Source: Caldilineaceae bacterium (lineage in GTDB: Bacteria; Chloroflexota; Anaerolineae; Caldilineales; Caldilineaceae). From it: a stretch of DNA of 51,916 nucleotides. Below the pieces are notes generated by a model. The model was given only the letters and a program-made list of their open reading frames with translations, had not been told where the DNA came from and ran no database searches. Where the stretch lies: assembly GCA_026645575.1 (NCBI GenBank), contig JAPKMW010000084.1:1-51916 (forward strand). Reading direction: 5' to 3'. Numbering within the stretch: the first letter of the stretch is position 1; the number at the start of each line of letters is the position of its first letter. Positions 37,913 through 51,916 of this stretch are shown piece after piece. Made by a program: the position numbers and the translations under genes.

Positions 37913-37973
37913 TCTTTTCCACGTTTTTCCCACGTTTCTGCCACGTTTACATCGTAATATACTAACACTTACC
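37913..37973 (+). promoter_or_regulatory. Three 11-bp direct repeats plus promoter of response regulator 1 (candidate BTAD operator)
   Basis: Three consecutive 11-mers end in CCACG: TCTTTTCCACG (37913-37923), TTTTTCCCACG (37924-37934) and TTTCTGCCACG (37935-37945). Nine bases later is the -10 box TAATAT (37955-37960). CTTACCA at 37968-37974 marks the expected transcript start. The spacing is identical to the second site at 41969-42030. Period 11 with the last repeat close to the -10 is the known layout of SARP/BTAD activator sites. No good -35 box is present, as expected for activator-dependent promoters. Confidence 0.65.
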
Positions 37974-38008
37974 ACAAGATTATTTTAATATACAGCAAGG
38001 AAGCTTTC

Positions 38009-38449
38009 ATGAAACTTTCAATTCTAGTGATTGATGATGAATCCGGTATCCGCGCATTGCTCAAAGAAATTTTGGTGCGTCAAGGGCATCAGGTTTATGA
38101 AGCCAAAGATGGCATTACTGGCTTAGAACAATTTTATCGTGTGCAACCCGATTTAGTGTTACTTGATGTGAGTATGCCCGGACGCGATGGCTTTGCCGTG
38201 CTGAAAGAAATCAGGCGCCAGAACACAGTCGTCGGGGTCTTGATGGTCAGCGCTTTCAAGCAGGCACACCTGATCACCAAAGCACTTGCCAGCGGCGCCG
38301 ACGGCTATCTGCAAAAGCCCTTTCGGTTGACCGACCTCTTAAAAGAGGTGCAACAGGTTAGTGCAGCAGTGCGCCTCCGTCGTACTATGCCCGTTAGCCA
38401 AATCACCTGGCAGAATTCGTGCTTCAACTATGAACCGCTGTTGGCCTAG
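38009..38449 (+). CDS. Single-domain response regulator (CheY-like) 1
   Basis: A 146-residue receiver with all key residues: acidic pocket VIDDE (9-10), phospho-acceptor Asp53 in LVLLDVSMPG, Ser81 and Lys103 in YLQKPF. Residues about 119-146 form a basic C-terminal tail, not a known DNA-binding domain. It is preceded by AAGGAAG and the candidate BTAD operator. The 3' end overlaps that of the convergent STAND gene by 26 bp. Its sensor kinase is not in the window. Probably signals to a partner protein. Confidence 0.85.
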   Translation: MKLSILVIDDESGIRALLKEILVRQGHQVYEAKDGITGLEQFYRVQPDLVLLDVSMPGRDGFAVLKEIRRQNTVVGVLMVSAFKQAHLITKALASGADGYLQKPFRLTDLLKEVQQVSAAVRLRRTMPVSQITWQNSCFNYEPLLA

Positions 38450-39863
38450 CCGACGTAAGCAACAAGCGATGTTCCGGGACATTGTGCAAGAAGGCTTGCC
38501 GGATCGTTTCATCGCTGATCTTTGCAGCCTGGCTTTGCAACCAGGCATGGCCATACGCCATGAACGCTTGGGCACGTGCCTCATCGCTGATCGCCCAAAG
38601 TTCATGGCTGGCTAGACAGATCCAGGGGACTTCCTGCTGGGTAGCCAAGCGCCCCGCCGTCAACCCAGCATAGACCGCTTCCCCATAGGCAGCGGCGCCA
38701 CGCCAATCTTGGCGTCGCCGGCAGATCAACGCCAATAAGGTTTGGGCGGCCATGCGATAGTCAGCCGCATCCGGCCAATCTGTCATCGCCAAAGCCACTT
38801 CCCCCAGCGCCAGGGCCTCTTGCCAGGCGCCCTGCGCCAACCGAAGCTCCCCAAGCGCAATTTTTGTCCAGGCCTGGTAGGCGCGATGGCCTAGCTGTTC
38901 ACTCCGTTCTACGGCTACTGTCAGGCTTTTATGCGCCTGTGTGCGCTCCCCTCGGTGTACTTGCGCCTTCCCTTGATAAGCATAGACTACCAGTTCGATT
39001 TCATCATGGATATGGTGCATCTCACACACAGTGATTAGCTGTTTTGACCAGCGCAACACCTGTTCGTAATCCCCCACGGCATAGGCGTACATCATAAAAG
39101 CTGCCGAAGTATTAAGCTTGCCGGGGAGATTTTCCAATGTTTGGTAGATCGCTAAGGCTTGTTGCGCAAAGTGATAAACGCTCGCCCAATCGCCCAGGTG
39201 TATGTACATTTGACCAATCCGGTGGTAGATCATCGCCTCGATTAACCGTAGATCGAATTCCTGGGCCAAACGCAACGCCTCTTCATAGGTAGTTGTCGCT
39301 TCGTCCAAAGCACCGGCATTCATCAAGGCACGGCCTAAATCGGCCAACAACAAGGTAGTAAAATAGGGCGGACTTTCAGCACAACGATAGGCAAAACGCA
39401 GCGCCGTTCTGGCTTGGTCAACGGTCAGCGAACCTTGCACCGATGAAATCAGATTGAGAGAGAAGTAGGCCAACATTTGTGCGCGGTCATCATTGATCGC
39501 CGCAGCCAGGATCTGCGCTTCCTGAACCGCCGACAATGCCTTATCCAATTGCCCACAGAAAGCCGAATGATAGGCATAATGCGACAGCAAAATGCTAACC
39601 ACCTGCTGTGCTGCGCTATCTTCTGCTTGCGCCAACGCTGGACGCAATGCGGCAAGCGCAAGGTCACATACGGCTGCCATCTCCTGAAACGAGCCATTAT
39701 ACAGGTGAAAGAGCGTGAGCGGGAGAAGGCTCTTGTCCAGTAGCGCCACGTGCCGTTCCGCCACTATCCACTGCCACGCCCGGCGAATATTGTGCAAATC
39801 CATTTGCAGTAAACGGCGCGCAGCCGTTGTTTGAAAAAGGCCGGGTAATTGCTGTTGGAGCAA
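38424..39863 (-). CDS. TPR half of interrupted STAND regulator 1
   Basis: An open frame of 479 residues made almost entirely of tetratricopeptide repeats (for example ALRLAQEFDLRLIEAMIYHRI, MYIHLGDWASVYHFAQQALA). It is the C-terminal sensor part of a BTAD-STAND-TPR protein. It is in the same reading frame as the upstream 39897-41957 gene, separated by a single TAG (39897-39899) and 11 sense codons. The TTG at 39863 is a possible separate start but has no good ribosome binding site. The sequence after the TAG (AQQRYAEYYAALLQQQ) matches the paralogues at the same place. Likely part of one damaged gene. Confidence 0.7.
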   Translation of the reverse strand: MLQQQLPGLFQTTAARRLLQMDLHNIRRAWQWIVAERHVALLDKSLLPLTLFHLYNGSFQEMAAVCDLALAALRPALAQAEDSAAQQVVSILLSHYAYHSAFCGQLDKALSAVQEAQILAAAINDDRAQMLAYFSLNLISSVQGSLTVDQARTALRFAYRCAESPPYFTTLLLADLGRALMNAGALDEATTTYEEALRLAQEFDLRLIEAMIYHRIGQMYIHLGDWASVYHFAQQALAIYQTLENLPGKLNTSAAFMMYAYAVGDYEQVLRWSKQLITVCEMHHIHDEIELVVYAYQGKAQVHRGERTQAHKSLTVAVERSEQLGHRAYQAWTKIALGELRLAQGAWQEALALGEVALAMTDWPDAADYRMAAQTLLALICRRRQDWRGAAAYGEAVYAGLTAGRLATQQEVPWICLASHELWAISDEARAQAFMAYGHAWLQSQAAKISDETIRQAFLHNVPEHRLLLTSARPTAVHS

Positions 39864-39896
39864 GGCGGCATAATATTCAGCATACCGTTGTTGCGC

Positions 39897-41957
39897 CTAC
39901 GCCAATGCGACGGCGTGCATCTGGATCTGTTCCATTGCATATTGACGCACCAGATCGTGCAAGAGAAAACGTTTGCTACGCGCAGAAGTGGAGACCTCCC
40001 GCAAAAGGGAATGCTCGACTAGCGTGCGCAAAATCGCATCGTCGGCGCCGGCAACAGTCATGGCCGCCTGGTGGCTAAAGGCGCCATGAAAGAGCGCCAA
40101 TTGACTAAGTGCTATCGCTGCTGCCGGGGGCAGTAAGCGCCAGGAGTCGTCCAACACCGAGCGCATGTTTCGATGGCGTTCCGGTAGATCCCGTTTGGAG
40201 GTGGCAAGCAATTGCGAATTTTGCCGTAAACTCTGGTAGATCTGTTCGCAGGTATAATATTTGGTCTGTGCGGCTGCCAACTCAATCCCTAGCGGCAGCC
40301 CATCAAGCAGGTGACAGATCGCAACAATCGCAGCCTGATTGGCGGGGTTGATGGCAAAAGTATGCGAAACTTGTTGTGCGCGCGCCTGAAAGAGCTGCAC
40401 ACTACTATAATCCGTTTCGGCTGGTCGCATAGCCGTCGGCGTGGTAGCCGTTTCTATGCGAGCAGGTACGGCCAATCCCAATACGCGCTTGACCGATTCC
40501 CCTGCCAAATTGAGCAAGGTGCGGGTTGTGACGAGCAGTGTGATCTGTGGATTGTGTTCCAGTAAACGCAGCAGAATTGGTTTGATCACCGGCAATAGCT
40601 GTTCAACATTGTCAAGCAGCAACAACAGCCGTTTGTTACGTAGATAACTTTGTATTTGTTGAAAGGGCGGCTGGTGACCAATCAGATCATGGCGCATGGC
40701 GTTCGCAATCGCGGTTGCGATCTTATCGGCAAGATCGGCGGTTATGGTCAGCGCATTCAGCGGCACAAACCAAATGCCATCACGAAATTGCGGATTTTCA
40801 ATTTTAGATTTTTGATTGCCGCCGCGCACCGGTGATAGTGCCGCTGAATCTAAAGTCAAAAATCGAAAATCGTTTGGCTGAGCGGGCGCCTTCTGGGCGC
40901 TAACGTCTACAATCCTTTGGGCCACGGCCAACGCCAGGCGTGTCTTCCCGATCCCCCCTTCCCCGACCAATGTCACCAATCGACAGGCAGAGTTGTGCAA
41001 ACACGCATAGAGTTCAGCCACTTCCTCCTCCCGCCCGACAAAAGAGGTGAGTTGGCGGGGGATATTGTGCGGCGGCGCTGATGACGGGGTGACAAGATGA
41101 CTGGGCGACTGGGTGACTGGGGCGGTTCTCGTCACCTTGTCACTGGTCACCTTGTCACTGGTCACCTTGTCACTGGTCACCTTGTCACTGGTCACTTTGT
41201 CATCTCCTCCCTGTCGAATCTGTTCATAGAGCGCCGTCGTCGCGGCTTCCGGCTCGACGCCCAGTTCATCAGACAGGGTTTGTTGACAAAGGCGATATTG
41301 TTGGAGAGCGGCGGTGCGTTGCCCTGTGGTCATCAACAACGCCATTTGCAGCCGATGACCAGCTTCATGCCACGGCTCCCATTGCAAGAGCCGACGGGTT
41401 ATTGCCAGCCCCGCCTGGTAATCTCCCTTTTGTTCGTAATCGAGCGCCAGTTGGTAGCTAGCGTTCATTACAAGGGTATGTAATTCTTCCCGCTGGTGCA
41501 TCACCCATGTTTCAAAGACGGGGGCATTGCGCACCGTAAAGCCGGCGAGAAATTCACCGTGGTAGAGATCCAATGCGACTTGCACCTTGGCGGCATTCCC
41601 CAGCCGTTCCCCTGGCGCCAGCGCGGCGCGCAACAGGGCAACATCCAGCCAGTAGGGCTGTTGCCAGTTAAATTCGATGCTCTGTGCAGTGATGAGCAGG
41701 TAATCACCCAGCCCTTGTCGTAGCTCGGGCAAAAGGTAACGCAAGTTTTTGCGGGCTTGTTCGATGCCAAGCTCAGGCCAGAACAACGCGGCCAAGTGAT
41801 CGCGACGCTGTGGTTTGCCCGTCACCATTACGTAGATGAAAAGGGCCAGCGCCTTGGGGGTGAAATTGATCGCAGGCAGGGCAACTGGTAATGTAAGTTC
41901 TACCGTGCCAAGACAAGCGAGTTTTAACAGACGATCACTATGATCAAGATTTGCCAT
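39897..41957 (-). CDS. BTAD-STAND regulator 1, N-terminal part (amber-interrupted)
   Basis: A 686-residue AfsR/MalT-like regulator fragment. The N-terminal winged-helix DNA-binding part is residues about 10-100 (FTPKALALFIYVMVTG, QARKNLRYLLPELRQ). The BTAD helical domain covers about 110-250 (FLAGFTVRNAPVFETWV, SDELGVEPEAATTALYEQI). A linker with five DKVT repeats follows. The STAND ATPase has Walker A GEGGIGKT and Walker B LLLLLDNVEQL. I choose ATG 41957 over GTG 41978, which lies inside the operator repeats. With the downstream frame it would total about 1177 residues, close to the paralogue at 45598. A single TAG cuts it after the winged-helix end of the ATPase module. Confidence 0.75.
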   Translation of the reverse strand: MANLDHSDRLLKLACLGTVELTLPVALPAINFTPKALALFIYVMVTGKPQRRDHLAALFWPELGIEQARKNLRYLLPELRQGLGDYLLITAQSIEFNWQQPYWLDVALLRAALAPGERLGNAAKVQVALDLYHGEFLAGFTVRNAPVFETWVMHQREELHTLVMNASYQLALDYEQKGDYQAGLAITRRLLQWEPWHEAGHRLQMALLMTTGQRTAALQQYRLCQQTLSDELGVEPEAATTALYEQIRQGGDDKVTSDKVTSDKVTSDKVTSDKVTRTAPVTQSPSHLVTPSSAPPHNIPRQLTSFVGREEEVAELYACLHNSACRLVTLVGEGGIGKTRLALAVAQRIVDVSAQKAPAQPNDFRFLTLDSAALSPVRGGNQKSKIENPQFRDGIWFVPLNALTITADLADKIATAIANAMRHDLIGHQPPFQQIQSYLRNKRLLLLLDNVEQLLPVIKPILLRLLEHNPQITLLVTTRTLLNLAGESVKRVLGLAVPARIETATTPTAMRPAETDYSSVQLFQARAQQVSHTFAINPANQAAIVAICHLLDGLPLGIELAAAQTKYYTCEQIYQSLRQNSQLLATSKRDLPERHRNMRSVLDDSWRLLPPAAAIALSQLALFHGAFSHQAAMTVAGADDAILRTLVEHSLLREVSTSARSKRFLLHDLVRQYAMEQIQMHAVALA
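40795..40900 (-). repeat. Variable AT-rich insertion inside ATPase domain of regulator 1
   Basis: Between VAQRIVD and FRDGIWFVPL lie about 39 extra residues (for example NDFRFLTLD and NQKSKIENPQ), encoded by AT-rich DNA with imperfect inverted arms (GATTTTCAATTTTAG and CTAAAGTCAAAAATC). Corresponding insertions occur at the same protein site in the paralogues at 44918, 47955 and 51590. Confidence 0.6.
41131..41203 (-). repeat. 15-bp coding minisatellite (DKVTS) in regulator 1 linker
   Basis: GTCACCTTGTCACTG is repeated exactly four times (41131-41190) with a fifth degenerate copy. On the minus strand it reads DKVTS. It lies in the linker between BTAD and ATPase domains. Confidence 0.9.
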
Positions 41958-41968
41958 ACTTTTACTCA

Positions 41969-42030
41969 CTTTACCCACATTTTACCCACGTTTTACCCAC
42001 GTTTGTAATATATAGTTATGATGCTTACCA
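41969..42030. promoter_or_regulatory. Three 11-bp direct repeats plus divergent promoter (candidate BTAD operator)
   Basis: CTTTACCCACA (41969-41979), TTTTACCCACG (41980-41990) and TTTTACCCACG (41991-42001) are followed at the same distance as in the site at 37913 by the -10 box TATAGT (42011-42016) and CTTACCA (42024-42030). On + they would drive response regulator 2 at 42137. On - they cover the start region of STAND regulator 1, so binding could also repress that gene. Confidence 0.7.
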
Positions 42031-42136: not shown

Positions 42137-42586
42137 ATGAAGCGGCAACATCTGTTGAAGCTACACCTTTTGTTGGTTGAAGAAAGCGCCGACCAATGCG
42201 CTTCCTTGGAATTTTTGTTAACACGCGCTGGTTATACGGTTCAGTCGGTGGCAAGTGAGGACGAAGCAGCTTCCGCCGTCATGCGTGAACGCCTGCATCT
42301 TGTCCTCATTGGCGACTCCTTTGCCGCGCAACGGCGCTTTATGCTTTGTGTGCGCTTGCGGCGCCTCTTTCGGTTCCCAATTGTCATTCTGGCCCCCCTG
42401 CACCATCCCGATGATCTAGCCACGGCGTTCCGCTTGGGGGCAGATGATTATATCATTATGCCGGTTCCCCCCAACATCTTGCTGGCGCGCATCAACAGCG
42501 TATTGCGCCGCGCCCATAAAAATACCCCTCGCCATCGCTGGAATGCATTGCTATCGCCAGAAGTTGTCTGTTCTACTCTCCAATAG
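42137..42586 (+). CDS. Degenerate receiver (pseudo-receiver) protein 2
   Basis: A 149-residue protein with the receiver fold (LHLLLVEESADQ, FRFPIVILAPLHHPDDLATA, GADDYIIMPVPP) but with altered switch residues. The usual phospho-acceptor position is Gly59 (LVLIGDS, with Asp60 next to it), the Ser/Thr switch is Ala86 and the conserved Lys is Met108. It is therefore likely not phosphorylated in the normal way. There is no output domain, only a basic C-terminal helix (LLARINSVLRRAH). The start follows AAAGAGAG. Its 3' end overlaps the convergent STAND gene by 36 bp. Parallel to response regulator 1 in position and promoter. Confidence 0.75.
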   Translation: MKRQHLLKLHLLLVEESADQCASLEFLLTRAGYTVQSVASEDEAASAVMRERLHLVLIGDSFAAQRRFMLCVRLRRLFRFPIVILAPLHHPDDLATAFRLGADDYIIMPVPPNILLARINSVLRRAHKNTPRHRWNALLSPEVVCSTLQ

Positions 42587-45500
42587 ACCTTTCTTATGTT
42601 GTATTAATGCGAATAGCTCACGGCGCGGTTGTACATTTTCCAGGAAGGATCGTCGTAAAGCACTGTCCCTAATTTTACCGGCGGCTTCTTGCAACACCTT
42701 GTGCGCTTGCTGCAAAATCGACTCGGCCCGTCCATCGCCTGTGGCATGAAAGACACGATAACCGATTAAGTACAAAGCAAATGGCTCGGCAACCGCTGCT
42801 GGCCCTTGCTGCATCAGGTTGGCTAACGGCTCCTCTAACAAGCTCTGCGCGACGATGGCTTCCTTACGCGACAGGAGTAATTGGGCTAGCCGAATGACTG
42901 GTTCAGTCAGGCGAAAGTGGAGCTTGGCTTCTTGCTGGATGGCCAAAGAGCGCCGGTAGAGGTTTTCACTGTTGTCAACTTCTCCTAATGCGTAGAGGGC
43001 ATCACCTAAATAGGTCAAGGCCCGATGTTCCAGCAGTGGCATCTTGTTTTGCACGAGCGGCAAAACGCGCCGACATGCGTCGGCGGCGGCAACCGGATCA
43101 CCGGAGAGTTGCCAGAGATGCGCCTGGCTGGTACGGCCCCAAGCTTCCCAATAGAGATCATGGAGCTTGTCAAAGTGGTGGAGCGCCTGACTCAAAGCGG
43201 TCTGGGCGCCGGCAAAAGCGCCCAGTTCCAACCAGAGATTGCCCAGCAAAATCTGATTAATCGCGACGCCATAGGTATCATTCATCGCTTGGGCAACGGC
43301 AACAGCCTGGACGAGATGGTCAACGGCGGGCATATAATCACGGTTGCGTTTATAAGCGCCGCCAAGATTGGCGTTGATGGTCGCTTCTAACTCACGATCC
43401 GGCATCTGCTGTAAATGACGCAGCGCGGCGTGGTAATAAGCGATGGCCGCCCCTAGTTCGCCACACAAAACGGCTGAAACCGCGCAAGTATTCAGGCAAA
43501 GCGCTTGCAGGTGAGCGTCACCTGCTTGTTGAGCATAGCCATGAGCCTGTTGGGCCAAGCGCCGCATCTCCATCGGTTGATGGCGGCGTTGGGCATTACG
43601 CGCCAGTTCGTGATAACTGCGGCCCAGCAAGCGCGGATCGCCTAACACCTTGCCCAGGTGCAACGCTTCCTGCACAAAGATTTCCGCTTCTTCAAGCCGA
43701 TCCAAATAGCGACAAAATTCGGTAATGTTATTCAACAAGCGGGCCAGTAATTGCCTCTGCACACTGGTCTCCATCGCTTGGCGCACGATGACAATGGCGC
43801 CGTGGAGTGCATCATAAGCCTCCTGGTGTAGACCACTCATCCGGTACAAATAGGGTAGGGCGTCGACACCTTGTATCAACAAATCCAACCGCTTTTGCGC
43901 TACCACCCATTCCCAGGCGGCACGGATGTTATCCAGGTCGCCTTGTTGAAGCTGTGGACTGATGCCCTGTTGACGCATAGCGCTTTCGGCTGTCTGTAAT
44001 TTTGACATGAAATAGCCGGCATGGTATTCCTGGGCTTGCTGACGCTCGCGTGGCGTCAACTGCTCCAGAGCATAGCGCCGCACGAGTTCGTGCAACGTAA
44101 AATAACGGCGCCCAGACACTTCGCCAGCCCAATGGAGAAGTGATTGATCGTGCAACCGGATGAGGATCGACGGCGTGGCCGCCGCGACAAAAGCAGCAGC
44201 CTCCTGATCAAAACAGCCACGAAAAATCGCACAGCGGGTCAGGACGGTCATTTCTTCACAACGCAAGAAGCGCCAGGAGTGATCCATGACTTTTTTGATA
44301 CTCCGATGGCGGTCGGCCACATCGGTAAGCGTAGTGGTTAGGATTTTGTAATCCTTTGCAAGCGTTTCCGCCAATGCGGCACAGGTGTACTCCCGGCTGA
44401 GCGCAGCGGCTAGCTCGATGCCCAGCGGCAGGCCGGCGACAGCGTAACCGATACGCCCCACATCAATCTGGTTGTCAGCGCTGAGTTGAAACGTACCCTG
44501 GGCGCGTCGTGCATGTTCAACAAATAAGGCCACACCGGCAAATTGTAAAAGTTCGGCTGGTCCAAGCCCGGGGAGATCGGCGGGCGACGGGAGAGGTAAG
44601 CCGGTAATGAAGTAGGGGTACTCGGCCTGGATGTTGAGCCGGCGCCGGGAAGTAAGCAACAGGGTGACCCCACTTGTTTTTTGCAACAACGCCATGACAA
44701 AGCCCGGTTCATCACCCAACGGTTCAAAATTATCAAAAATGAACAGCACCCGTTTTGTCGACAGATAGCGCAGAATTTGCGCTGACGGCGAATCTTGCGG
44801 GCCAAAGGTAAATCCCAATTCCTTACCAATTGCGGCCGCCAGTTGATCGGCTAAATTTACGGTGGCCGTCAAGCCGACCAGGGAGATAAACCAAATCCCA
44901 TCAGGGAATTTTGGCTCCTGCCCGGCTCTAAAATCTAAAATTGACTGGGCAACCGCCAACGCCAAGCGCGTTTTTCCCACACCGCCTTCCCCGACAATGG
45001 TCAATAGACGGTAATCTTCCCGCCTCAGAAACTGGCAAATCTCGCTGATTTCCTGCTCACGCCCAAAAAAGGGGGTGAGTTGGTTGGGTAGATTATGGTT
45101 TAGCCGGGACGGCATGGCCTGCGCTTGTATGCGCAAGGTTGCCAGCGCCTGTCGTTGTTCGGCAACCCATTGCATAAAAGCGGGCGCTTTGCGCACCTGA
45201 AAGCCGGCCAGGAATTCTTCCCGCAGCAACGCCAACGCCGCCTGCACTTCATCGGCGCTAACCGTGTGACGCGGCGCCGTCAAGGTTGTCCGCACCGCCT
45301 CCACATCCAACCAATAGGGCATGGTGCGGTTAAAGGCAATGGTCTGCGGCGTGATCAGCAGGTAGTCTCCCAGCAGTTGGCGCAGATCAGGCAGGAGATA
45401 GCGCAGATTGGCGCGCGCTTGGGGCAGCGATAAGTCGCCCCAGAGCAACTCTGCCAGGGCATCGCGCTGATGCGGACGCCCAGTGACGGCCAGATAGATA

Positions 45501-45601
45501 AAGAGCGCCAACGCTTTCCCGCCAAGGAGGCCAGCCAGCGACTGTTCACCAAGCGTGAGGGTGGGGGCGCCGCAAAGGGTTACTTGGAGCTTGCCTGTCA
45601 T
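42551..45601 (-). CDS. BTAD-STAND-TPR regulator 2 (shortened BTAD)
   Basis: A 1016-residue regulator with a winged-helix N-terminus (KLQVTLCGAPTLTLGEQ), a BTAD start (FLAGFQVRKAPAFMQWV) and then a direct jump to NLPNQLTPFFGREQE. About 100 residues of the BTAD TPR part and the DKVT linker found in the paralogues are absent. ATPase: Walker A GEGGVGKT, Walker B VLFIFDNFEPL, and sensor-type LLLTSRRRLNIQ. A winged-helix and about 400 residues of TPR follow. Its ATG overlaps the stop of regulator 3 as ATGA, showing translational coupling. ATP-dependent signalling switch that probably controls transcription. Confidence 0.85.
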   Translation of the reverse strand: MTGKLQVTLCGAPTLTLGEQSLAGLLGGKALALFIYLAVTGRPHQRDALAELLWGDLSLPQARANLRYLLPDLRQLLGDYLLITPQTIAFNRTMPYWLDVEAVRTTLTAPRHTVSADEVQAALALLREEFLAGFQVRKAPAFMQWVAEQRQALATLRIQAQAMPSRLNHNLPNQLTPFFGREQEISEICQFLRREDYRLLTIVGEGGVGKTRLALAVAQSILDFRAGQEPKFPDGIWFISLVGLTATVNLADQLAAAIGKELGFTFGPQDSPSAQILRYLSTKRVLFIFDNFEPLGDEPGFVMALLQKTSGVTLLLTSRRRLNIQAEYPYFITGLPLPSPADLPGLGPAELLQFAGVALFVEHARRAQGTFQLSADNQIDVGRIGYAVAGLPLGIELAAALSREYTCAALAETLAKDYKILTTTLTDVADRHRSIKKVMDHSWRFLRCEEMTVLTRCAIFRGCFDQEAAAFVAAATPSILIRLHDQSLLHWAGEVSGRRYFTLHELVRRYALEQLTPRERQQAQEYHAGYFMSKLQTAESAMRQQGISPQLQQGDLDNIRAAWEWVVAQKRLDLLIQGVDALPYLYRMSGLHQEAYDALHGAIVIVRQAMETSVQRQLLARLLNNITEFCRYLDRLEEAEIFVQEALHLGKVLGDPRLLGRSYHELARNAQRRHQPMEMRRLAQQAHGYAQQAGDAHLQALCLNTCAVSAVLCGELGAAIAYYHAALRHLQQMPDRELEATINANLGGAYKRNRDYMPAVDHLVQAVAVAQAMNDTYGVAINQILLGNLWLELGAFAGAQTALSQALHHFDKLHDLYWEAWGRTSQAHLWQLSGDPVAAADACRRVLPLVQNKMPLLEHRALTYLGDALYALGEVDNSENLYRRSLAIQQEAKLHFRLTEPVIRLAQLLLSRKEAIVAQSLLEEPLANLMQQGPAAVAEPFALYLIGYRVFHATGDGRAESILQQAHKVLQEAAGKIRDSALRRSFLENVQPRRELFALIQHKKGLLESRTDNFWR
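44918..44948 (-). repeat. Short form of ATPase-domain insertion in regulator 2
   Basis: Only about 8 residues (FRAGQEPK) separate SILD and FPDGIWFISL. This gives the minimal length of the site that holds longer palindromic insertions in the other three paralogues. Confidence 0.5.
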
Positions 45602-48600
45602 AGTGGATTGTACGCACTTTCTGCCGTATCATCACTGGCGGCGCGCCTTAGGGCCTGCAACTGGCAATGATACGGCGCTTTGTCCAAAAAGGAACGACGT
45701 AAGCTTTCATCACTAATCTTGACAGCCTGCTCTGCAACCCAGTCGCAGGCGCGTTGGAGGATCAACGCGGCACGCTGATCGACGGCGGCCGTCAACACTT
45801 GATAACAGGTGATGGCGGCGGCGGCCGCATCATACTGCGTCGCTAGTGACTGGGTGAGCAAAAGATGCAAACTCTGCTCAGCCCAGGGCAAGGCTTGCGC
45901 GACTTGCTGCTGTTGTAACTGGACTTGCGCCAACCCAGCACATGCGGCGGCTTGACAGGACAAATGCCCCGTCGCAGGGACAGCCAGGGCAGCCTGATAA
46001 TGCGCTTCGGCCAGTTGCCACTGTTGCTGCGCCAATACCACATGGCCCAACTCAATCCGGGCTTGCGCACTTTCGGTTTGACGGCCTAACGTTTGCGCCA
46101 GTGTCAGTAACTGTTGGCAGGCAATATCAGCCGCGGCGCTGTCCCCAAGGTAGCGCAACGCCCGCCCACGCACCAGCATTGCGCTCAGGTCGTTGATCGG
46201 GTCCGGGACAAAGGTGCGAAAAGCTAGCGTCTGATCAGCCCAGGTGATGGCGCGGGGATAATCGCCAAGCGCCTCCGCCGCCAGCGCCAGACGGGCATAT
46301 TGGTAGCCACGATTGAGGCTGCTGTTCAGCGCTAGGTTGAGTTGCAACCCCTGTTGGGTTGTGCCGTCAGCCAGCGCCCAATCCCCGCTCATAGCATAGA
46401 TCAGACCAAATTCGCTCAGGATATAGCCTTCCAGGTAAACCAACCGCTCTTTCTGCACCAGTTGCAGCGCCTCTTGCATGGCGTTGTGTGCAGCGGCGAT
46501 CTTGCCCTGCACTGCCAACCCCATGCTCAGAAAAGCCAGGCTCACGGCGACCATGTATGAAATCCCCCCCGCACGGGCATAGCCCAAAGCCAGCGCGCAG
46601 AGCCGTTCATGTTCGGCCAATTCGCCCTGGGCAAAGGCAACCATCGCCAATATCCCGTACCCCATTGCCAGAACACGCCCATCGGCCAACGGTTCCGCTC
46701 TGGTAATCGCCGCGTGGGCTAACTGGGTTACCTCGGCATAACGGCCCTGGTAATAGCCCAAATAGGCTGTCGCGGCGTGCGCAATGGCAAAGAAACGGGC
46801 TTCCTGTTCATCCCGCGGTGGTGTAGGCCAGCGGTGTATGCGTTCGACAACGGCATAACAGAGATCCCACCCTTCTTGCATTGGCCCATTGGCCATAAAG
46901 TGCAGAAAAACCCCTTCACACAATCGGGTGATGGGCGCAAGCTGATCTTGTTCAACAGACCACAACCAGGTCAGGCGTATATGGGGCAGTTCTTGCTGGA
47001 TAAACTGTAGTTTGCTCGGCGTGCGCATCAATTCTTCGGCATCCGTTTCGACCCTGGTGCTATAGTAAGCAATATAGCGTTGCCGACAGTGGGTGGCAGC
47101 CTGCGGGTCACGTGCGAATTGTGTTGCCGCATAGTGGCGCACCAATTCGTGGAGTTCAAAGCGCCCATCGCTGGTCTGTTTGAGCAGTGATTGATCGATC
47201 AATGCCCAAAGGATGGCCGGTGTGGCACCAGCGATGGCCGCAGCCGCTTCGGCGGTAAAACTTTGCGGAAAGATACTGCAAGCCGCCAGGGTGCGCGCCT
47301 GCGACGGCGTTAGGAAGTGCCAGGAAAAATCAAAGAGGGCGGTAATGGTGCGGTGCCGCGGCGGGACATCGCGTTGGGTGGCGGCTAATACCCGGTAGTC
47401 CTGCTGGATGCTTTGCCAAAGTTCAGCGCAGGTATGGTAGCGCAACAGGGCCGCTGCCAGTTCGATGCCCAGCGGCAAGCCTTCGACAAAGCGACAGACC
47501 TGGAGAACCACCGCTTGGTTGTGTTGATCCAACTGAAAGGTCCGGTCGGCACGCTGTGCCCGCTCGACAAAGAGGGCGACACTGTCATAGCGTTGCGCTT
47601 CGGCAGGCGATAGAACCGCACCCGCTGCCACCGCCGGTGTTGCCAACCCATCCAGTTGCCAGACAAACTCGGCCTGGAGATTGAGGATCTGGCGCGAGGT
47701 GACTAACAGTTTCACGCCTGGCGCCCGTTGGAGGAGGGTATACAGCAGATCGACGCCGGCTAACAGATGTTCAAAGCTGTCCAGAATCAACAACAGGCGG
47801 CGTTCACCCACCCTGTCCAGAAGCTGTTCTTGCGGGGCAAGCGGTCCCACGCGGGGCAAGTGCAGGGCATCCATGATCGCCACCGCCAGCCGATCTGCCA
47901 GATTCTCCTCGGCAGCCAGACCGATCAGTGGGACAAACCAAAGGCCGTCGGGGAATTTTGAATTTTGGCGCGCCTGAAAGGCAACTGCCTCTGGGCGCGA
48001 TTTTGGATTGTCCACCAATGGTTCAAAATTTAAAATCCACTGTGCCACCGCCAGTGCCAGCCGAGTCTTGCCAATACCACCCAGCCCTGTCAGCGTAATG
48101 AGGGGGTGGACAGCATCCGTCAGCAAGGTGCAGAGTTCCAAAAGCTCTGTCGCTCGCCCGATAAAGGGGGTGAGTTGGCCGGGCAAGTTGTGTGGCAGGG
48201 AGTGGGTAGGGGTGGGAGGGGGGAGGGGGTGAGAGGGTGAAGGGGTGACAGGGTGAAGGGGTGACAGGGTGACTTCGACAAGCTCAGTCACCCTGTCACT
48301 AGTCACCTTGTCACCTTGCCACCTTGTCACCTTGTCATACGCGCTAGCGCGAATTTCTTCATAGAGCGCGCTGGTGGCCGCTTCCGGCTCCACCCCCAGT
48401 TCATCGGCCAACAGTTGACGGCAAAGGGTATAATGGGCCAACGCCGCCGACCGTTGGCCAGCGGCGACCAATAGGCGCATTTGCAAACGATGACCGGCTT
48501 CATGCCACGGCGCCCACTGTAATAAGTGCTGGTTGGTCGTCAGCCCGGCTTGGGTTTCGCCCGCTTGGTAATAGGCTTCCGCCAGCGTATAGAAGCCTTG

Positions 48601-49110
48601 TACGGTTATATGGTGGATTTCATCCTGTTGTTGGCGAACCCAGGTTTCAAAGACAGGGGCATTGCGCACCGTGAAGCCAGCCAGAAACTTGCCCTGGTAC
48701 AGATCGAGCGCGGCTTGCAAGGCAGGCAGGTCGATGGGCGTAGCAGTTGTTTGGTGCATTGGGCCGATTGTGGGCGATTGGGCCGCAAGCGTTGTTTGCA
48801 GCACTTCGACATCGAACCAATAGGGCGCCTGACGGTTGAAGCTAATGGTTTGTGGGGTGATAGTCAGGTGGGCATCGAGATGGCGCCGCAGATCGGGTAA
48901 CAAATAGCGCAGGTTGTTGCGCGCCTGCTGGTTATTGAATTCACTCCAAAGTAGATCCGCCAGATGGTCGCGCGTATGCGGCTGCCGGTTGACGGTCAGG
49001 TAGGCAAAGAGAGCCAACACCTTCCCCGTCAGCAGACCGGTCAGCGGTTGGTCCCCCAGTGTAATGGTTGGCGATCCGAGAAGGGTTATTTGCAAAAGTT
49101 GACTCATCAT
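45598..49110 (-). CDS. BTAD-STAND-TPR regulator 3
   Basis: About 1170 residues, the most complete copy here. Start MMSQLLQITLLGSPTITLG at 49110. Winged helix (LTVNRQPHTRDHLADLLW), complete BTAD (ending LGVEPEAATSALYEEI), a repeat-rich linker, ATPase with Walker A GLGGIGKT and Walker B LLLILDSFEHL, then FELHELVRHYA and about 450 residues of TPR ending SLRRSFLDKAPYHC. The regulator probably senses a ligand through the TPR part, switches by ATP and binds DNA through the BTAD region. Member of a tightly packed tandem of three with regulators 2 and 4. Confidence 0.85.
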   Translation of the reverse strand: MMSQLLQITLLGSPTITLGDQPLTGLLTGKVLALFAYLTVNRQPHTRDHLADLLWSEFNNQQARNNLRYLLPDLRRHLDAHLTITPQTISFNRQAPYWFDVEVLQTTLAAQSPTIGPMHQTTATPIDLPALQAALDLYQGKFLAGFTVRNAPVFETWVRQQQDEIHHITVQGFYTLAEAYYQAGETQAGLTTNQHLLQWAPWHEAGHRLQMRLLVAAGQRSAALAHYTLCRQLLADELGVEPEAATSALYEEIRASAYDKVTRWQGDKVTSDRVTELVEVTLSPLHPVTPSPSHPLPPPTPTHSLPHNLPGQLTPFIGRATELLELCTLLTDAVHPLITLTGLGGIGKTRLALAVAQWILNFEPLVDNPKSRPEAVAFQARQNSKFPDGLWFVPLIGLAAEENLADRLAVAIMDALHLPRVGPLAPQEQLLDRVGERRLLLILDSFEHLLAGVDLLYTLLQRAPGVKLLVTSRQILNLQAEFVWQLDGLATPAVAAGAVLSPAEAQRYDSVALFVERAQRADRTFQLDQHNQAVVLQVCRFVEGLPLGIELAAALLRYHTCAELWQSIQQDYRVLAATQRDVPPRHRTITALFDFSWHFLTPSQARTLAACSIFPQSFTAEAAAAIAGATPAILWALIDQSLLKQTSDGRFELHELVRHYAATQFARDPQAATHCRQRYIAYYSTRVETDAEELMRTPSKLQFIQQELPHIRLTWLWSVEQDQLAPITRLCEGVFLHFMANGPMQEGWDLCYAVVERIHRWPTPPRDEQEARFFAIAHAATAYLGYYQGRYAEVTQLAHAAITRAEPLADGRVLAMGYGILAMVAFAQGELAEHERLCALALGYARAGGISYMVAVSLAFLSMGLAVQGKIAAAHNAMQEALQLVQKERLVYLEGYILSEFGLIYAMSGDWALADGTTQQGLQLNLALNSSLNRGYQYARLALAAEALGDYPRAITWADQTLAFRTFVPDPINDLSAMLVRGRALRYLGDSAAADIACQQLLTLAQTLGRQTESAQARIELGHVVLAQQQWQLAEAHYQAALAVPATGHLSCQAAACAGLAQVQLQQQQVAQALPWAEQSLHLLLTQSLATQYDAAAAAITCYQVLTAAVDQRAALILQRACDWVAEQAVKISDESLRRSFLDKAPYHCQLQALRRAASDDTAESAYNPL
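47955..48035 (-). repeat. Variable insertion in ATPase domain of regulator 3
   Basis: Between AQWIL and FPDGLWFVPL about 26 residues (NPKSRPEAVAFQARQNSK) are encoded by DNA with AATTTTGAATTTT and TTCAAAATTTAAAA arms, an imperfect inverted repeat. Confidence 0.55.
48236..48340 (-). repeat. GGTGACAGG/CACCTTGTC repeats with inner palindrome in regulator 3 linker
   Basis: Many GGTGACAGG and TCACCTTGTCACC units. GTGACAGGGTGAC (48261-48273) pairs exactly with 48287-48299 around TTCGACAAGCTCA, the same loop as the intergenic repeat at 2345. All of this is translated within the BTAD-ATPase linker. Confidence 0.8.
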
Positions 49111-51916
49111 ACTTTGCTGCTTGGGCGGCGCTACATAGCGTGCGATGGACGGCAACATTCTCTAGAAAGGAACGGCGCAACACCGGATCATCAATTTGTT
49201 CAGCACGTTTTTGCAAAAGTTCATAAGCCTGCGCTAATACAGCATCTGCGCGCGGATCCCGGAGTGCGTGCAACCCTTGATAGCAAGTGAGATAGACCCG
49301 CAACGGCTCTTCTAGTCCCTCCCCCGCGGTTTGGGTAAGAAAAGCGATGATCGTCTCCAGGTGTTGCCCAAGGCATTGACACGCCAGCGGACGCGCTAGC
49401 GCCACACGCACCAAGCCCGCCAGCGGTTCAATCGTCATGAAAGGGAGAGCCACTTCATGGGCCAACATTACGGCTGAGCGATAGGCGGCTTCCGCCTCAG
49501 CAAGATCAGCCAAAGCCAGTGCGGCATGACCGATCACAGTCCACGCATAGCTCTGCCAGTGTTGATTATTGAGCTGTTGGCTAACCGTCAGCGCCTGGCG
49601 GCCATATTGTTGGGCGGCGCGCTGGTCACCTAAATGATGCGTATGCAACCCTAAGTTTACCAGGACAATTGGTAGCCGTCCAGTTAGGCCCAGTTGTTGC
49701 AACAGTTCATAACATTCCTGACTATAGGCAAGCGCCGTCGTGTAATCACCCACATAGTCGGCCGAGATGCCCAGGTTGCCTAACACCTCAGCTTGATGTT
49801 GCTGGTCGCCCAGGTTGCGGTAAGCGCGTAATGCCGCCGTATAGTACCATTGGGCGGCGGCGTAATTGCCCTGATTATCACAAAGGATACCAAGGTTGGT
49901 CAGCAGATCGGGCTGATTGGCCTGAATGCCGCTCTGTTTCATCAGCGCCAACGCGCCCTCCCAACAGGCTTTGGCATTCTGGAAATCGCCTATGCGCTGA
50001 TAGATGCTCCCCAGGATAAGTTGGGTGCGATTTTCGGCAACGATCGCCTTGGCCGTGCGACTCAACGCCAACGCTTCCTGGCAGTACGCCAACGCCGCCG
50101 GATAATCGGCGCGCCGTTCCGCCAATGTCGCCAACTTGTTAAGCGTCAAGATCACGACTTCCCAGACCATTGTTTGTGGCACTGTGGTGCGGGCCACGGC
50201 CAATGCGGCGGCTAACTGTTCGCTGCCGGCTTCATAGCTCCCACTGTTCAACAGGCTGGCGCCCCAGAGATAGTGTCCTCTGGCGACAAGCGCCGGCTGG
50301 CCGCCCGCTTCCGCCAGGGCGACCGCTTGCTGCGCGGCATGGAGACAGGCGGCATAGGCTTCTTGGACGATCAACAAATGGCCCTGCGCGCAAAGCAGTG
50401 TTGCCAAAGCGCTTTGCAACCCGGTGACCGCCGGCGTCGCCTCAACCTGCTCTTGGATCATTGCCACCGCCGCGCCAAGCAGTGCTTTGCCTTGTTCTAA
50501 ACGGTAGGCGCAGTGGTAAAACTCGCACAGCGCCAGCGCGCTTTGCATCAAGAGATCTGCTGCTGCTTGGGTAATGGCCCAGCGCCAGGCTTGTTCAATT
50601 GAGCAGATCTCCTGCTGCAATACAGTCATGGCCGCTTGTGGCGTTGGCCCTTGCAAGACGCGCCCCTGGTCACAAAGCAAGGCTAGATAGTATTGCCCAT
50701 GCCGGGCCGCCGTTGCGGCGCGCGCTGCCCTATCTTCCTGTTTTAGCTTTGCCGCCGCAAATTGGTGCACGGTTTCATGAAGCAGATAGCGTTGCGGCGC
50801 AGTGCAATGTAGGAGTGACTGGTCACATAGCGCCGTCAAGATGGTTGGTGTTGTCTCGACGATGGCGACCGCCGCCGCCGCCGTAAAGCTCTCTTGGAAG
50901 AGAGACAAGTGAGCCAGCGTTTGCTGTTCAACCGCTGTCAATAGACGCCAACTATCTTCGAGCACAGCGGTCAGGCTGCGGTGGCGCAAGGGGACATCCC
51001 GGTAGGCCGTCGTGACCGTCAGTGCATTGACAGTCAACAGTTGCTGAATCTCATCACAACTGTGACAACGAAGTTGGGCTGCTGCCAACTCGATCCCCAA
51101 CGGTAGCCCGTGAAGCTGCCGGCATATTGCGCTGATCGCAGACTGATTGGTATGATCCAGTTGAAAGTTGCGTTGAACCCGTTGCGCCCGTTCAACAAAA
51201 AGGGCAACACTACTGTACCGCAGGAGGTCAGCGGTGACGCTGCTGCGCGCTTGATCACACGACGGGGTCGGCAACCCGGTGACAGGCCACTCATATTCAG
51301 CTTGCAGGTTGAGCAACGCCCGCGAGGTGACCAGCAGCGTGATCCCGGCGGTCTGCCGGAGTAGCTCGACCATGAAATCGACGCCATCGAGGATCTGCTC
51401 CACATTATCCAAGATCAGGAGCGCTCGTTTATTACGCAGATAGGCCAGTAAGGCGCTGGTCAGTACACCGGCGTCGCTAAAGGTAATGTTCATAGCTTGA
51501 GCAATGGCTGCGGCGATCTGTTCCGCGAGATTTAGCCCAGCCGTCAGGCCGGCGAGCGAGACAAACCAGATGCCATCCGGGAATTTTGGATTTTGGCGGG
51601 GGTCGTTTGGGCGCGCTTTTGGCTTTTCACCCTGCACCGGACCGAAATCTAAAAGCCAAAAGCGCAAATCCAAAAGCGCCTGGGCAACGGCCAATGCTAA
51701 ACGGGTCTTGCCAACACCGCCTTCGCCAATCAGGGTAATCAGTCGGCACTCTTCCCCATGCAATTGAGCGTATAACTCGGCAATCTCCTGCTCACGGCCG
51801 AAAAAGGGGGTCAGTTGGCTGGGCAGGTTGTGAGGCGGTGACAAGGTGACAAGGTGATTGGTCGTCACCTTGTCACCTGTCACCTTGTCACCTGTCACCT
51901 TGTCACCTGTCACCTT
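48941..51916 (-). CDS. BTAD-STAND-TPR regulator 4 (N-terminus beyond the window)
   Basis: At least 990 residues. The visible part starts in the DKVTG linker at the right edge, so the BTAD region is outside. ATPase: Walker A GEGGVGKT, Walker B ALLILDNVEQI, then HELVxxYA-type winged helix (LLHETVHQFAAAKL) and TPR repeats (YAAAQWYYTAALRAYRNLGD) ending PVLRRSFLENVAVHRTL. The frame then continues about 65 residues past the conserved end and overlaps the start of regulator 3 by about 170 bp in another frame. A TGATGA in the third frame at the regulator 3 start suggests the original stop was there, so a small indel may have extended the tail. Confidence 0.8.
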   Translation of the reverse strand, partial: KVTGDKVTGDKVTGDKVTTNHLVTLSPPHNLPSQLTPFFGREQEIAELYAQLHGEECRLITLIGEGGVGKTRLALAVAQALLDLRFWLLDFGPVQGEKPKARPNDPRQNPKFPDGIWFVSLAGLTAGLNLAEQIAAAIAQAMNITFSDAGVLTSALLAYLRNKRALLILDNVEQILDGVDFMVELLRQTAGITLLVTSRALLNLQAEYEWPVTGLPTPSCDQARSSVTADLLRYSSVALFVERAQRVQRNFQLDHTNQSAISAICRQLHGLPLGIELAAAQLRCHSCDEIQQLLTVNALTVTTAYRDVPLRHRSLTAVLEDSWRLLTAVEQQTLAHLSLFQESFTAAAAVAIVETTPTILTALCDQSLLHCTAPQRYLLHETVHQFAAAKLKQEDRAARAATAARHGQYYLALLCDQGRVLQGPTPQAAMTVLQQEICSIEQAWRWAITQAAADLLMQSALALCEFYHCAYRLEQGKALLGAAVAMIQEQVEATPAVTGLQSALATLLCAQGHLLIVQEAYAACLHAAQQAVALAEAGGQPALVARGHYLWGASLLNSGSYEAGSEQLAAALAVARTTVPQTMVWEVVILTLNKLATLAERRADYPAALAYCQEALALSRTAKAIVAENRTQLILGSIYQRIGDFQNAKACWEGALALMKQSGIQANQPDLLTNLGILCDNQGNYAAAQWYYTAALRAYRNLGDQQHQAEVLGNLGISADYVGDYTTALAYSQECYELLQQLGLTGRLPIVLVNLGLHTHHLGDQRAAQQYGRQALTVSQQLNNQHWQSYAWTVIGHAALALADLAEAEAAYRSAVMLAHEVALPFMTIEPLAGLVRVALARPLACQCLGQHLETIIAFLTQTAGEGLEEPLRVYLTCYQGLHALRDPRADAVLAQAYELLQKRAEQIDDPVLRRSFLENVAVHRTLCSAAQAAKYDESTFANNPSRIANHYTGGPTADRSADGEGVGSLCLPDRQPAAAYARPSGGSTLE
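51590..51680 (-). repeat. Palindromic insertion in ATPase domain of regulator 4
   Basis: GCGCTTTTGGCTTTT (51613-51627) pairs exactly with 51651-51665. The insertion encodes about 28 residues between AQALLD and FPDGIWFVSL (FWLLDFGPVQGEKPKARPND), at the same site as in the other regulators. Confidence 0.75.
51836..51916 (-). repeat. 15-bp coding minisatellite (DKVTG) in regulator 4 linker, cut by window edge
   Basis: GTCACCTTGTCACCT repeats at least three times from 51864 to the window end, preceded by inverted GGTGACAAGGTGAC copies at 51837-51856, so the array also forms a hairpin. It encodes DKVTG repeats in the same place as the array of regulator 1. Confidence 0.85.

Follow-up and report, generated by a model that had tools for sequence, protein, structure and literature searches.

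PhoB/OmpR boxes are tandem half-sites about 11 bp apart with a winged-helix binder, and ActII-ORF4 and similar proteins are small SARPs. According to one published account (PMC10936776), the direct repeats of SARP promoters are spaced by 11 or 22 bp and their last copy lies 8 bp from the -10, the afs box (-40 to -19) consists of two 11-bp repeats with contacts on the first 8 bp of each, and AfsR SARP engages sigma region 4, the SARP domain by itself activating in vitro. By our reading of the scaffold coordinates in that account, with the -10 taken to start at -12, the contacted block and the -10 of AfsR/afsS are separated by 9 bp. The stretch considered here, called the window, comprises 51,916 nucleotides of contig JAPKMW010000084.1 (assembly GCA_026645575.1) of a Caldilineaceae bacterium (Chloroflexota), in which two sets of three 11-bp repeats, operators 1 and 2, precede the genes of two receiver proteins (receivers 1 and 2) among genes for STAND-type regulators. 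The same 9-bp gap is present at both sites if their -10 hexamers are those at 37955 and 42011, and an AfsR/SARP-type operator architecture is well supported by comparison with related genomes. Both probably serve as operators for a large SARP of the AfsR type, in all likelihood the product of the gene between them (regulator 3), which would activate receivers 1 and 2.

Like AfsR/afsS of Streptomyces coelicolor as described in the account cited above, the locus combines winged helix, BTA, NOD and TPR domains with 11-bp repeats and a 9-bp gap, but it has three repeats instead of two, another repeat sequence, receivers as targets and a host in the Chloroflexota. Small SARPs, unlike regulator 3, have neither a STAND nor a TPR part and function in antibiotic clusters. 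Direct repeats 11 or 22 bp apart ahead of a -10 are described for them as well (PMC10936776). EmbR of Mycobacterium tuberculosis resembles regulator 3 in its winged helix and BTA fold, as judged by a model match, but carries an FHA domain (PMC10936776) where regulator 3 has NB-ARC and TPR parts. PhoB/OmpR proteins, in turn, are another regulator class, and the window sites have no gene for a DNA-binding response regulator next to them. The mechanism is of a known kind; new are the phylum, a private operator word for each regulator, and the use of a receiver and a pseudo-receiver as targets. The literature searched, which leaves out most subscription journals, yielded no study of SARP-type operators in Chloroflexota and no paper assigning targets to AfsR-like STAND regulators of that phylum, a weak claim of absence.

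Repeats and promoter elements of the two sites

Operator 1 (37913-37945, + strand) reads TCTTTTCCACG TTTTTCCCACG TTTCTGCCACG and agrees with the consensus TTTTnCCCACG at 26 of 30 specified letters, while operator 2 (41969-42001, + strand), 11 bp from the ATG of regulator 3, reads CTTTACCCACA TTTTACCCACG TTTTACCCACG and agrees at 28 of 30. Both had been picked out in an earlier sequence-only reading of the stretch, and the letters are as it described them. Its placing of the promoter elements was likewise borne out by direct count: the -10 hexamers proposed for receiver 1 (TAATAT, 37955-37960) and receiver 2 (TATAGT, 42011-42016) begin at the tenth base past the repeats, and the motif CTTACCA (37968-37974 and 42024-42030), common to both promoters and at promoter 1 close to the expected transcript start, begins at the twenty-third, all on the + strand.

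A period-11 self-match of at least 15 of 22 occurs in the window at these two sites only (21 and 19), and both sites exceed random expectation, as 60 first-order Markov windows gave a top self-match of 17 and a top consensus score of 21. The next-best consensus score in the real window is 19 of 30, overlapping registers of both sites being set aside. A detector requiring three blocks and a -10 passes in the 51.9 kb solely at operators 1 and 2. For a -10 at 37955, the 8-bp blocks of operator 1 fall at 37916-37923, 37927-37934 and 37938-37945, and those of operator 2 at 41972-41979, 41983-41990 and 41994-42001 (+ strand); the pair 37955/42011 is the choice that brings both sites into one phase, with a 9-bp gap at each. 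In strict form the detector passes site 1 with the alternative hexamer TATACT (37958) and block CCACGTTT and fails with TAATAT (37955), and it passes site 2 with TATAGT (42011) and also with an alternative TAATAT (42006). A function as iterons in the plasmid-replication sense was rejected, the neighbouring genes scanned being regulators and receivers.

Recurrence at related BTAD-STAND genes

AfsR-like STAND regulators are numerous in related genomes: the regulator query was matched in 26 of 46, with up to 21 matches per genome even though scoring covered just 15 candidates in each. From these, the DNA upstream of 117 BTAD-STAND genes (regions L137-L253), in genomes of the order around one Caldilineaceae locus, was assembled from matches beginning within the first 36 query residues, among the matches listed. 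Nine rows were omitted before counting, mostly for scant upstream DNA, and at least two of these (G030:C149 and G005:C184) turned out to carry an operator. Fifty regions upstream of TetR genes, drawn from a longer list and again among the matches listed, served as control. Self-matches at period 11 reached 15 or more of 22 in 24 of the 117 BTAD-STAND regions versus one of the 50 TetR regions (Fisher p 0.0015), the remaining periods tested (8-16) giving 2-11 of 117. The same score at period 11 was reached by none of 117 coding stretches and by one of 104 stretches taken farther upstream. Where a TATNNT adjoins the block in the 24 repeat regions, it is directed away from the regulator in 16 and along with it in two.

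An alignment on the -10 of 18 sites, each with a self-match of 14 or higher and a TATNNT inside a 26-base range, shows an 11-bp-offset identity of 0.78-1.0 over an 8-bp block that ends 9 bp before the -10. Identity is 0.61-0.72 at the three spacer positions after the block, and 0.39-0.67 in a third, weaker copy upstream. The strict geometry detector passed 15 of the 117 regions in divergent orientation, none in codirectional orientation and none of the 50 TetR regions, compared with means of 0 divergent and 0.1 codirectional over 20 shuffles, and its count was highest at the real gap, dropping when the gap was shifted in either direction. A further 36 of 80 loci, mostly from other lineages, were chosen before the detector was devised, for an early match start and available upstream DNA; L005, L018 and L021 were excluded, as their genomes were already among the 46, and L020 coincides with L153 of the 117, leaving 35 independent loci. 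Here the strict detector found two divergent and no codirectional sites, and weaker two-copy sites of similar appearance were seen by eye at L001, L007 and L047.

Among 16 non-redundant operators, the first five letters of the block are variable and the last three are mostly A/G-C-G, this half being kept in the last copy by 11-14 of the 16 operators at each position, and a T stands in mid-spacer in 14 of 16. The window blocks (TACCCACG; TTCCCACG, CTGCCACG) agree with this pattern. Regulators with a winged-helix identity above 0.7 had on average 7.9 of 8 block letters in common (12 pairs) and those at 0.55-0.7 had 6.8 of 8 (11 pairs), compared with 3.3-3.5 of 8 below 0.55 (328 pairs). As judged from these alignments, the block sequence varies among paralogues and is kept among regulators with similar DNA-binding domains. 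Operator and helix similarity are correlated (Mantel r 0.61, 0 of 5000 permutations), but a general trend was rejected, since the Mantel signal is due to close relatives and no trend exists below a winged-helix identity of 0.55. There is a hint that a Ser replacing the Arg of the recognition helix is tied to loss of the RCG half, with L164 and L165 fitting; contrary to it, L143 does not fit and L223 is without RCG despite its Arg. Repeats and -10 are conserved against diverged flanks in L142, L146 and L213, and in L220 and L231 the conserved stretch is longer than the repeats and -10.

Searching the 46 genomes for GTGAAGCG-N3-GTGAAGCG followed by a -10 gave seven matches in seven genomes and none for the reversed pattern; six of the seven lie divergently beside a BTAD gene, comprising the three seeds and three of the four new matches. 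At L351 (G003:C278:12442-12476), the fourth new match, the GTGAAGCG operator precedes a gene that is like (by eye) the target which the regulator faces in two further genomes. The 1.5 kb on its other side showed no regulator, as if the operator had stayed with its target. A search for GATTKGCG gave four matches, of which the three seeds are all BTAD-adjacent and one is new. L358 (G035:C13:10213-10246) carries a triple repeat of the GATTGGCG type together with a -10; no BTAD gene was seen directly beside it, and one with a similar operator lies about 3 kb away.

Candidate regulators and alternative readings

From left to right, the window carries operator 1, receiver 1 (38009-38449, + strand), regulator 3 (38424-41957, - strand), operator 2, receiver 2 (42137-42586, + strand), regulator 2 (42551-45601, - strand), regulator 1 (45598-49158, - strand, with its likely ATG at 49110) and, near the window edge upstream of regulator 1, an NB-ARC/TPR reading frame (48941-51913, - strand). 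Receiver 1 overlaps the 3' end of regulator 3 convergently, as does receiver 2 with regulator 2. Named relatives of the window regulators come from Caldilinea sp. CFX5 and Caldilineaceae bacterium records.

Regulator 3 matches BTAD (PF03704, E 7e-22), AAA_16/NB-ARC and TPR_MalT, the TPR part sitting behind an in-frame TAG (39897-39899, - strand) that follows 686 amino acids. A structural model of these first 686 residues (mean predicted local distance difference test score, pLDDT, 79; predicted template-modelling score, pTM, 0.52; 24 sequences) matches the AfsR SARP chains 8k60 and 8hvr, with template-modelling scores of 0.67-0.69 by target length and 23-24% identity, as well as EmbR and NB-ARC proteins of the Apaf-1/CED-4/resistosome kind, and comparison with the sequence of AfsR 8k60 gives an E value of 0.0005. 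By its predicted domains (OmpR-type winged helix, BTA, NOD/STAND and TPR), regulator 3 is an AfsR-like large SARP. Assignment as an AfsR orthologue was rejected, the first 686 residues alone scoring 34.4 bits against an NCBIfam equivalog cut-off of 1430. The five closest relatives are full length (1131-1147 amino acids), and the copy in the window may equally be an error or a decaying gene; a product truncated at the TAG could still act, because the AfsR SARP domain alone activates in vitro. Within the regulator 3 gene, repeated GTCACCTTGTCACTG units (41130-41202) encode a DKVTS repeat in the linker that joins the BTAD and NB-ARC parts, and similar units are also present in regulator 1.

We infer that two or three protomers of regulator 3 would dock side by side on the 8-bp blocks through their N-terminal winged helices, the 11-bp block spacing corresponding to one helical turn. 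With about 9 bp separating the end of the last block from the -10, the bound activator would replace the -35 contact and recruit RNA polymerase to the promoters of receivers 1 and 2. The NB-ARC and TPR parts probably gate docking or recruitment through ATP and some signal. Operator 2 lies 11 bp ahead of the regulator 3 ATG, and its occupancy would therefore plausibly limit transcription of regulator 3 as well, a probable case of negative autoregulation.

Several observations count against regulator 3 acting in this way, or against the generality of the operator type. The TAG splits regulator 3 on this contig. At site 1 the -10 preferred by the strict detector lies three bases later than TAATAT, 3 bp out of phase with site 2, and the CTTACCA common to both promoters is left unexplained by the operator model. 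Clear repeats are present in just 24 of the 117 regions, the rest being without a visible operator, and the 15 of 117 given by the strict detector represent an optimistic effect size, its thresholds having been set on the same regions that were scored; the orientation and the controls are independent of that choice. Shifting the gap by up to six bases in the 36 further loci gave 0-3 divergent sites, with no peak at the expected gap. Conservation is little informative where flanks are conserved too, as in L168 and L181 (almost throughout) and in parts of L169, L185 and L186. The new GATTKGCG site is without a BTAD gene within 1.5 kb on either side. Lastly, orthologue DNA of regulator 3 and the receivers was sought in genome contigs, the 46 genomes and viral contigs, and only distant relatives were found.

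The in-frame TAG also speaks for an alternative, namely that regulator 1 or 2, or all three regulators, bind both sites, with a broken regulator 3 as a bystander on this contig. Regulator 2 (winged-helix-like N-terminus, NB-ARC and TPR, with no BTAD match between the winged-helix-like start and the NB-ARC/TPR part) and regulator 1 (a BTAD-TPR protein) are candidate second and third binders, no operator of their own was seen for either within the window, and the recognition helices of regulators 3, 2 and 1 (EQARKNLRYLLPELRQ, PQARANLRYLLPDLRQ and QQARNNLRYLLPDLRR) are nearly identical. We nevertheless regard it as unlikely: the operators of relatives, where seen, adjoin their own regulator divergently, and the winged-helix identity of regulator 3 to regulators 2 (0.54) and 1 (0.47) is at or below the level where operator sharing ends. 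The proposal of the sequence-only reading, that BTAD-STAND proteins of the cluster regulate both receivers, is kept as likely for regulator 3, which is divergent from and adjacent to site 2, whose repeat recurs at site 1; regulators 1 and 2 may act there as well. Its assignment of a SARP/BTAD architecture agrees with the divergent recurrence of the geometry at part of the related BTAD-STAND genes and not at 50 TetR genes. Its closed circuit finds no support, no step from receiver to regulator being visible; regulator 3 has a TAG and receiver 2 is a pseudo-receiver.

The repeats might instead be bound by an OmpR/PhoB-type response regulator and have nothing to do with the BTAD proteins. Both classes have the winged-helix fold, an 11-bp period is a feature of PhoB boxes too and receiver genes lie downstream, but neither receiver has a DNA-binding domain (both match PF00072 only, with no PF00486). 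The repeats are, moreover, enriched at BTAD and not at TetR genes (the control family used), the operator sequence tracks the BTAD winged helix and the gap matches that of AfsR, which together make such an origin very improbable. That the tandem repeats arose by chance or slippage and play no part in regulation is extremely unlikely, even if slippage can yield simple T/C-rich units and CTTACCA is unaccounted for, given that the scores exceed those of random windows, that repeat, spacing and -10 are common to two separate sites, and that the geometry recurs at related regulators.

Receivers and the targets of sister regulators

Activation by regulator 3, the reading preferred here, would place two different receivers under one control. 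Receiver 1 (146 amino acids) is a single-domain response regulator in which the acidic pair, the phospho-acceptor Asp and the Lys are all kept in alignment. Receiver 2 (149 amino acids) is a conserved pseudo-receiver, with Gly at the phospho-acceptor position in 14 and Ser in one of 15 aligned family members, and it belongs to a distinct group of about two dozen near relatives. In Caldilinea sp. CFX5, relatives of receiver 2 (P0128) and regulator 3 (P0007) are both on 97,475-base contigs, suggesting that their neighbourhood is kept there. Receivers are an unusual target, because none of the 117 sister regions has one in a window-like position (phmmer with receivers 1 and 2, E 1e-5); the sole receiver match in these regions (L215, 1e-7) is on the regulator's own strand.

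More commonly, the gene opposite a sister regulator encodes an undescribed small protein of about 70-100 residues (YxxYLLRLW...WRASLEDP.TGER.GFADLE), present in 36 of the 117 regions (e.g., L158, L165 and L223). All 38 matches to this YLLRLW protein at E 1e-3 are on the strand facing away from the regulator, in a search for which eight of the nine seed sequences were drawn from these same regions. None of five YLLRLW proteins tested matched Pfam and none of three tested matched NCBIfam. The YLLRLW gene is often succeeded by that of a large, exported-looking protein (by eye), and the sister regulators at L208, L228 and L230 have AACGATC-type repeats facing sulfotransferase-like genes (named by eye).

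A wider reading, offered tentatively and as one we lean slightly against, is that the AfsR-like STAND repertoire of Chloroflexota uses private divergent 11-bp-repeat operators, in which five variable bp precede a shared RCG-nTn half, each switching on a dedicated nearby gene with a specificity readable from the recognition helix, and that the window module was rewired from a YLLRLW target to a receiver and pseudo-receiver. Should this geometry hold, with an 8-bp block repeated every 11 bp, a 9-bp gap and a -10 facing away, targets could be read from the DNA adjoining a sizeable share of these regulators and a recognition code could be tested over many paralogues. It would also suggest that the AfsR promoter mechanism of Streptomyces extends beyond actinomycetes, and would link a pseudo-receiver to a STAND switch.

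Wider searches of the 46 genomes for the window's own repeat were of mixed outcome. The literal CCACGTTT triple, with three mismatches allowed, was found at 19 places in 13 genomes against 7 for the reversed control, a weak result, with many places away from BTAD genes. A CCACR triple followed by a -10 occurred at seven places in four of the genomes and at none in the control: L100 faces a BTAD gene, L101 (the same locus as L087) and L106 each come after a BTAD-type gene, L104 lies ahead of a small YLLRLW-type gene, and for L102, L103 and L105 no link was seen by eye. At L104 (G005:C7:12928-12971) a second, near-identical operator lies 9.4 kb from the first, before another YLLRLW-type gene, and the pair may represent one regulator with two local targets, as in the window.

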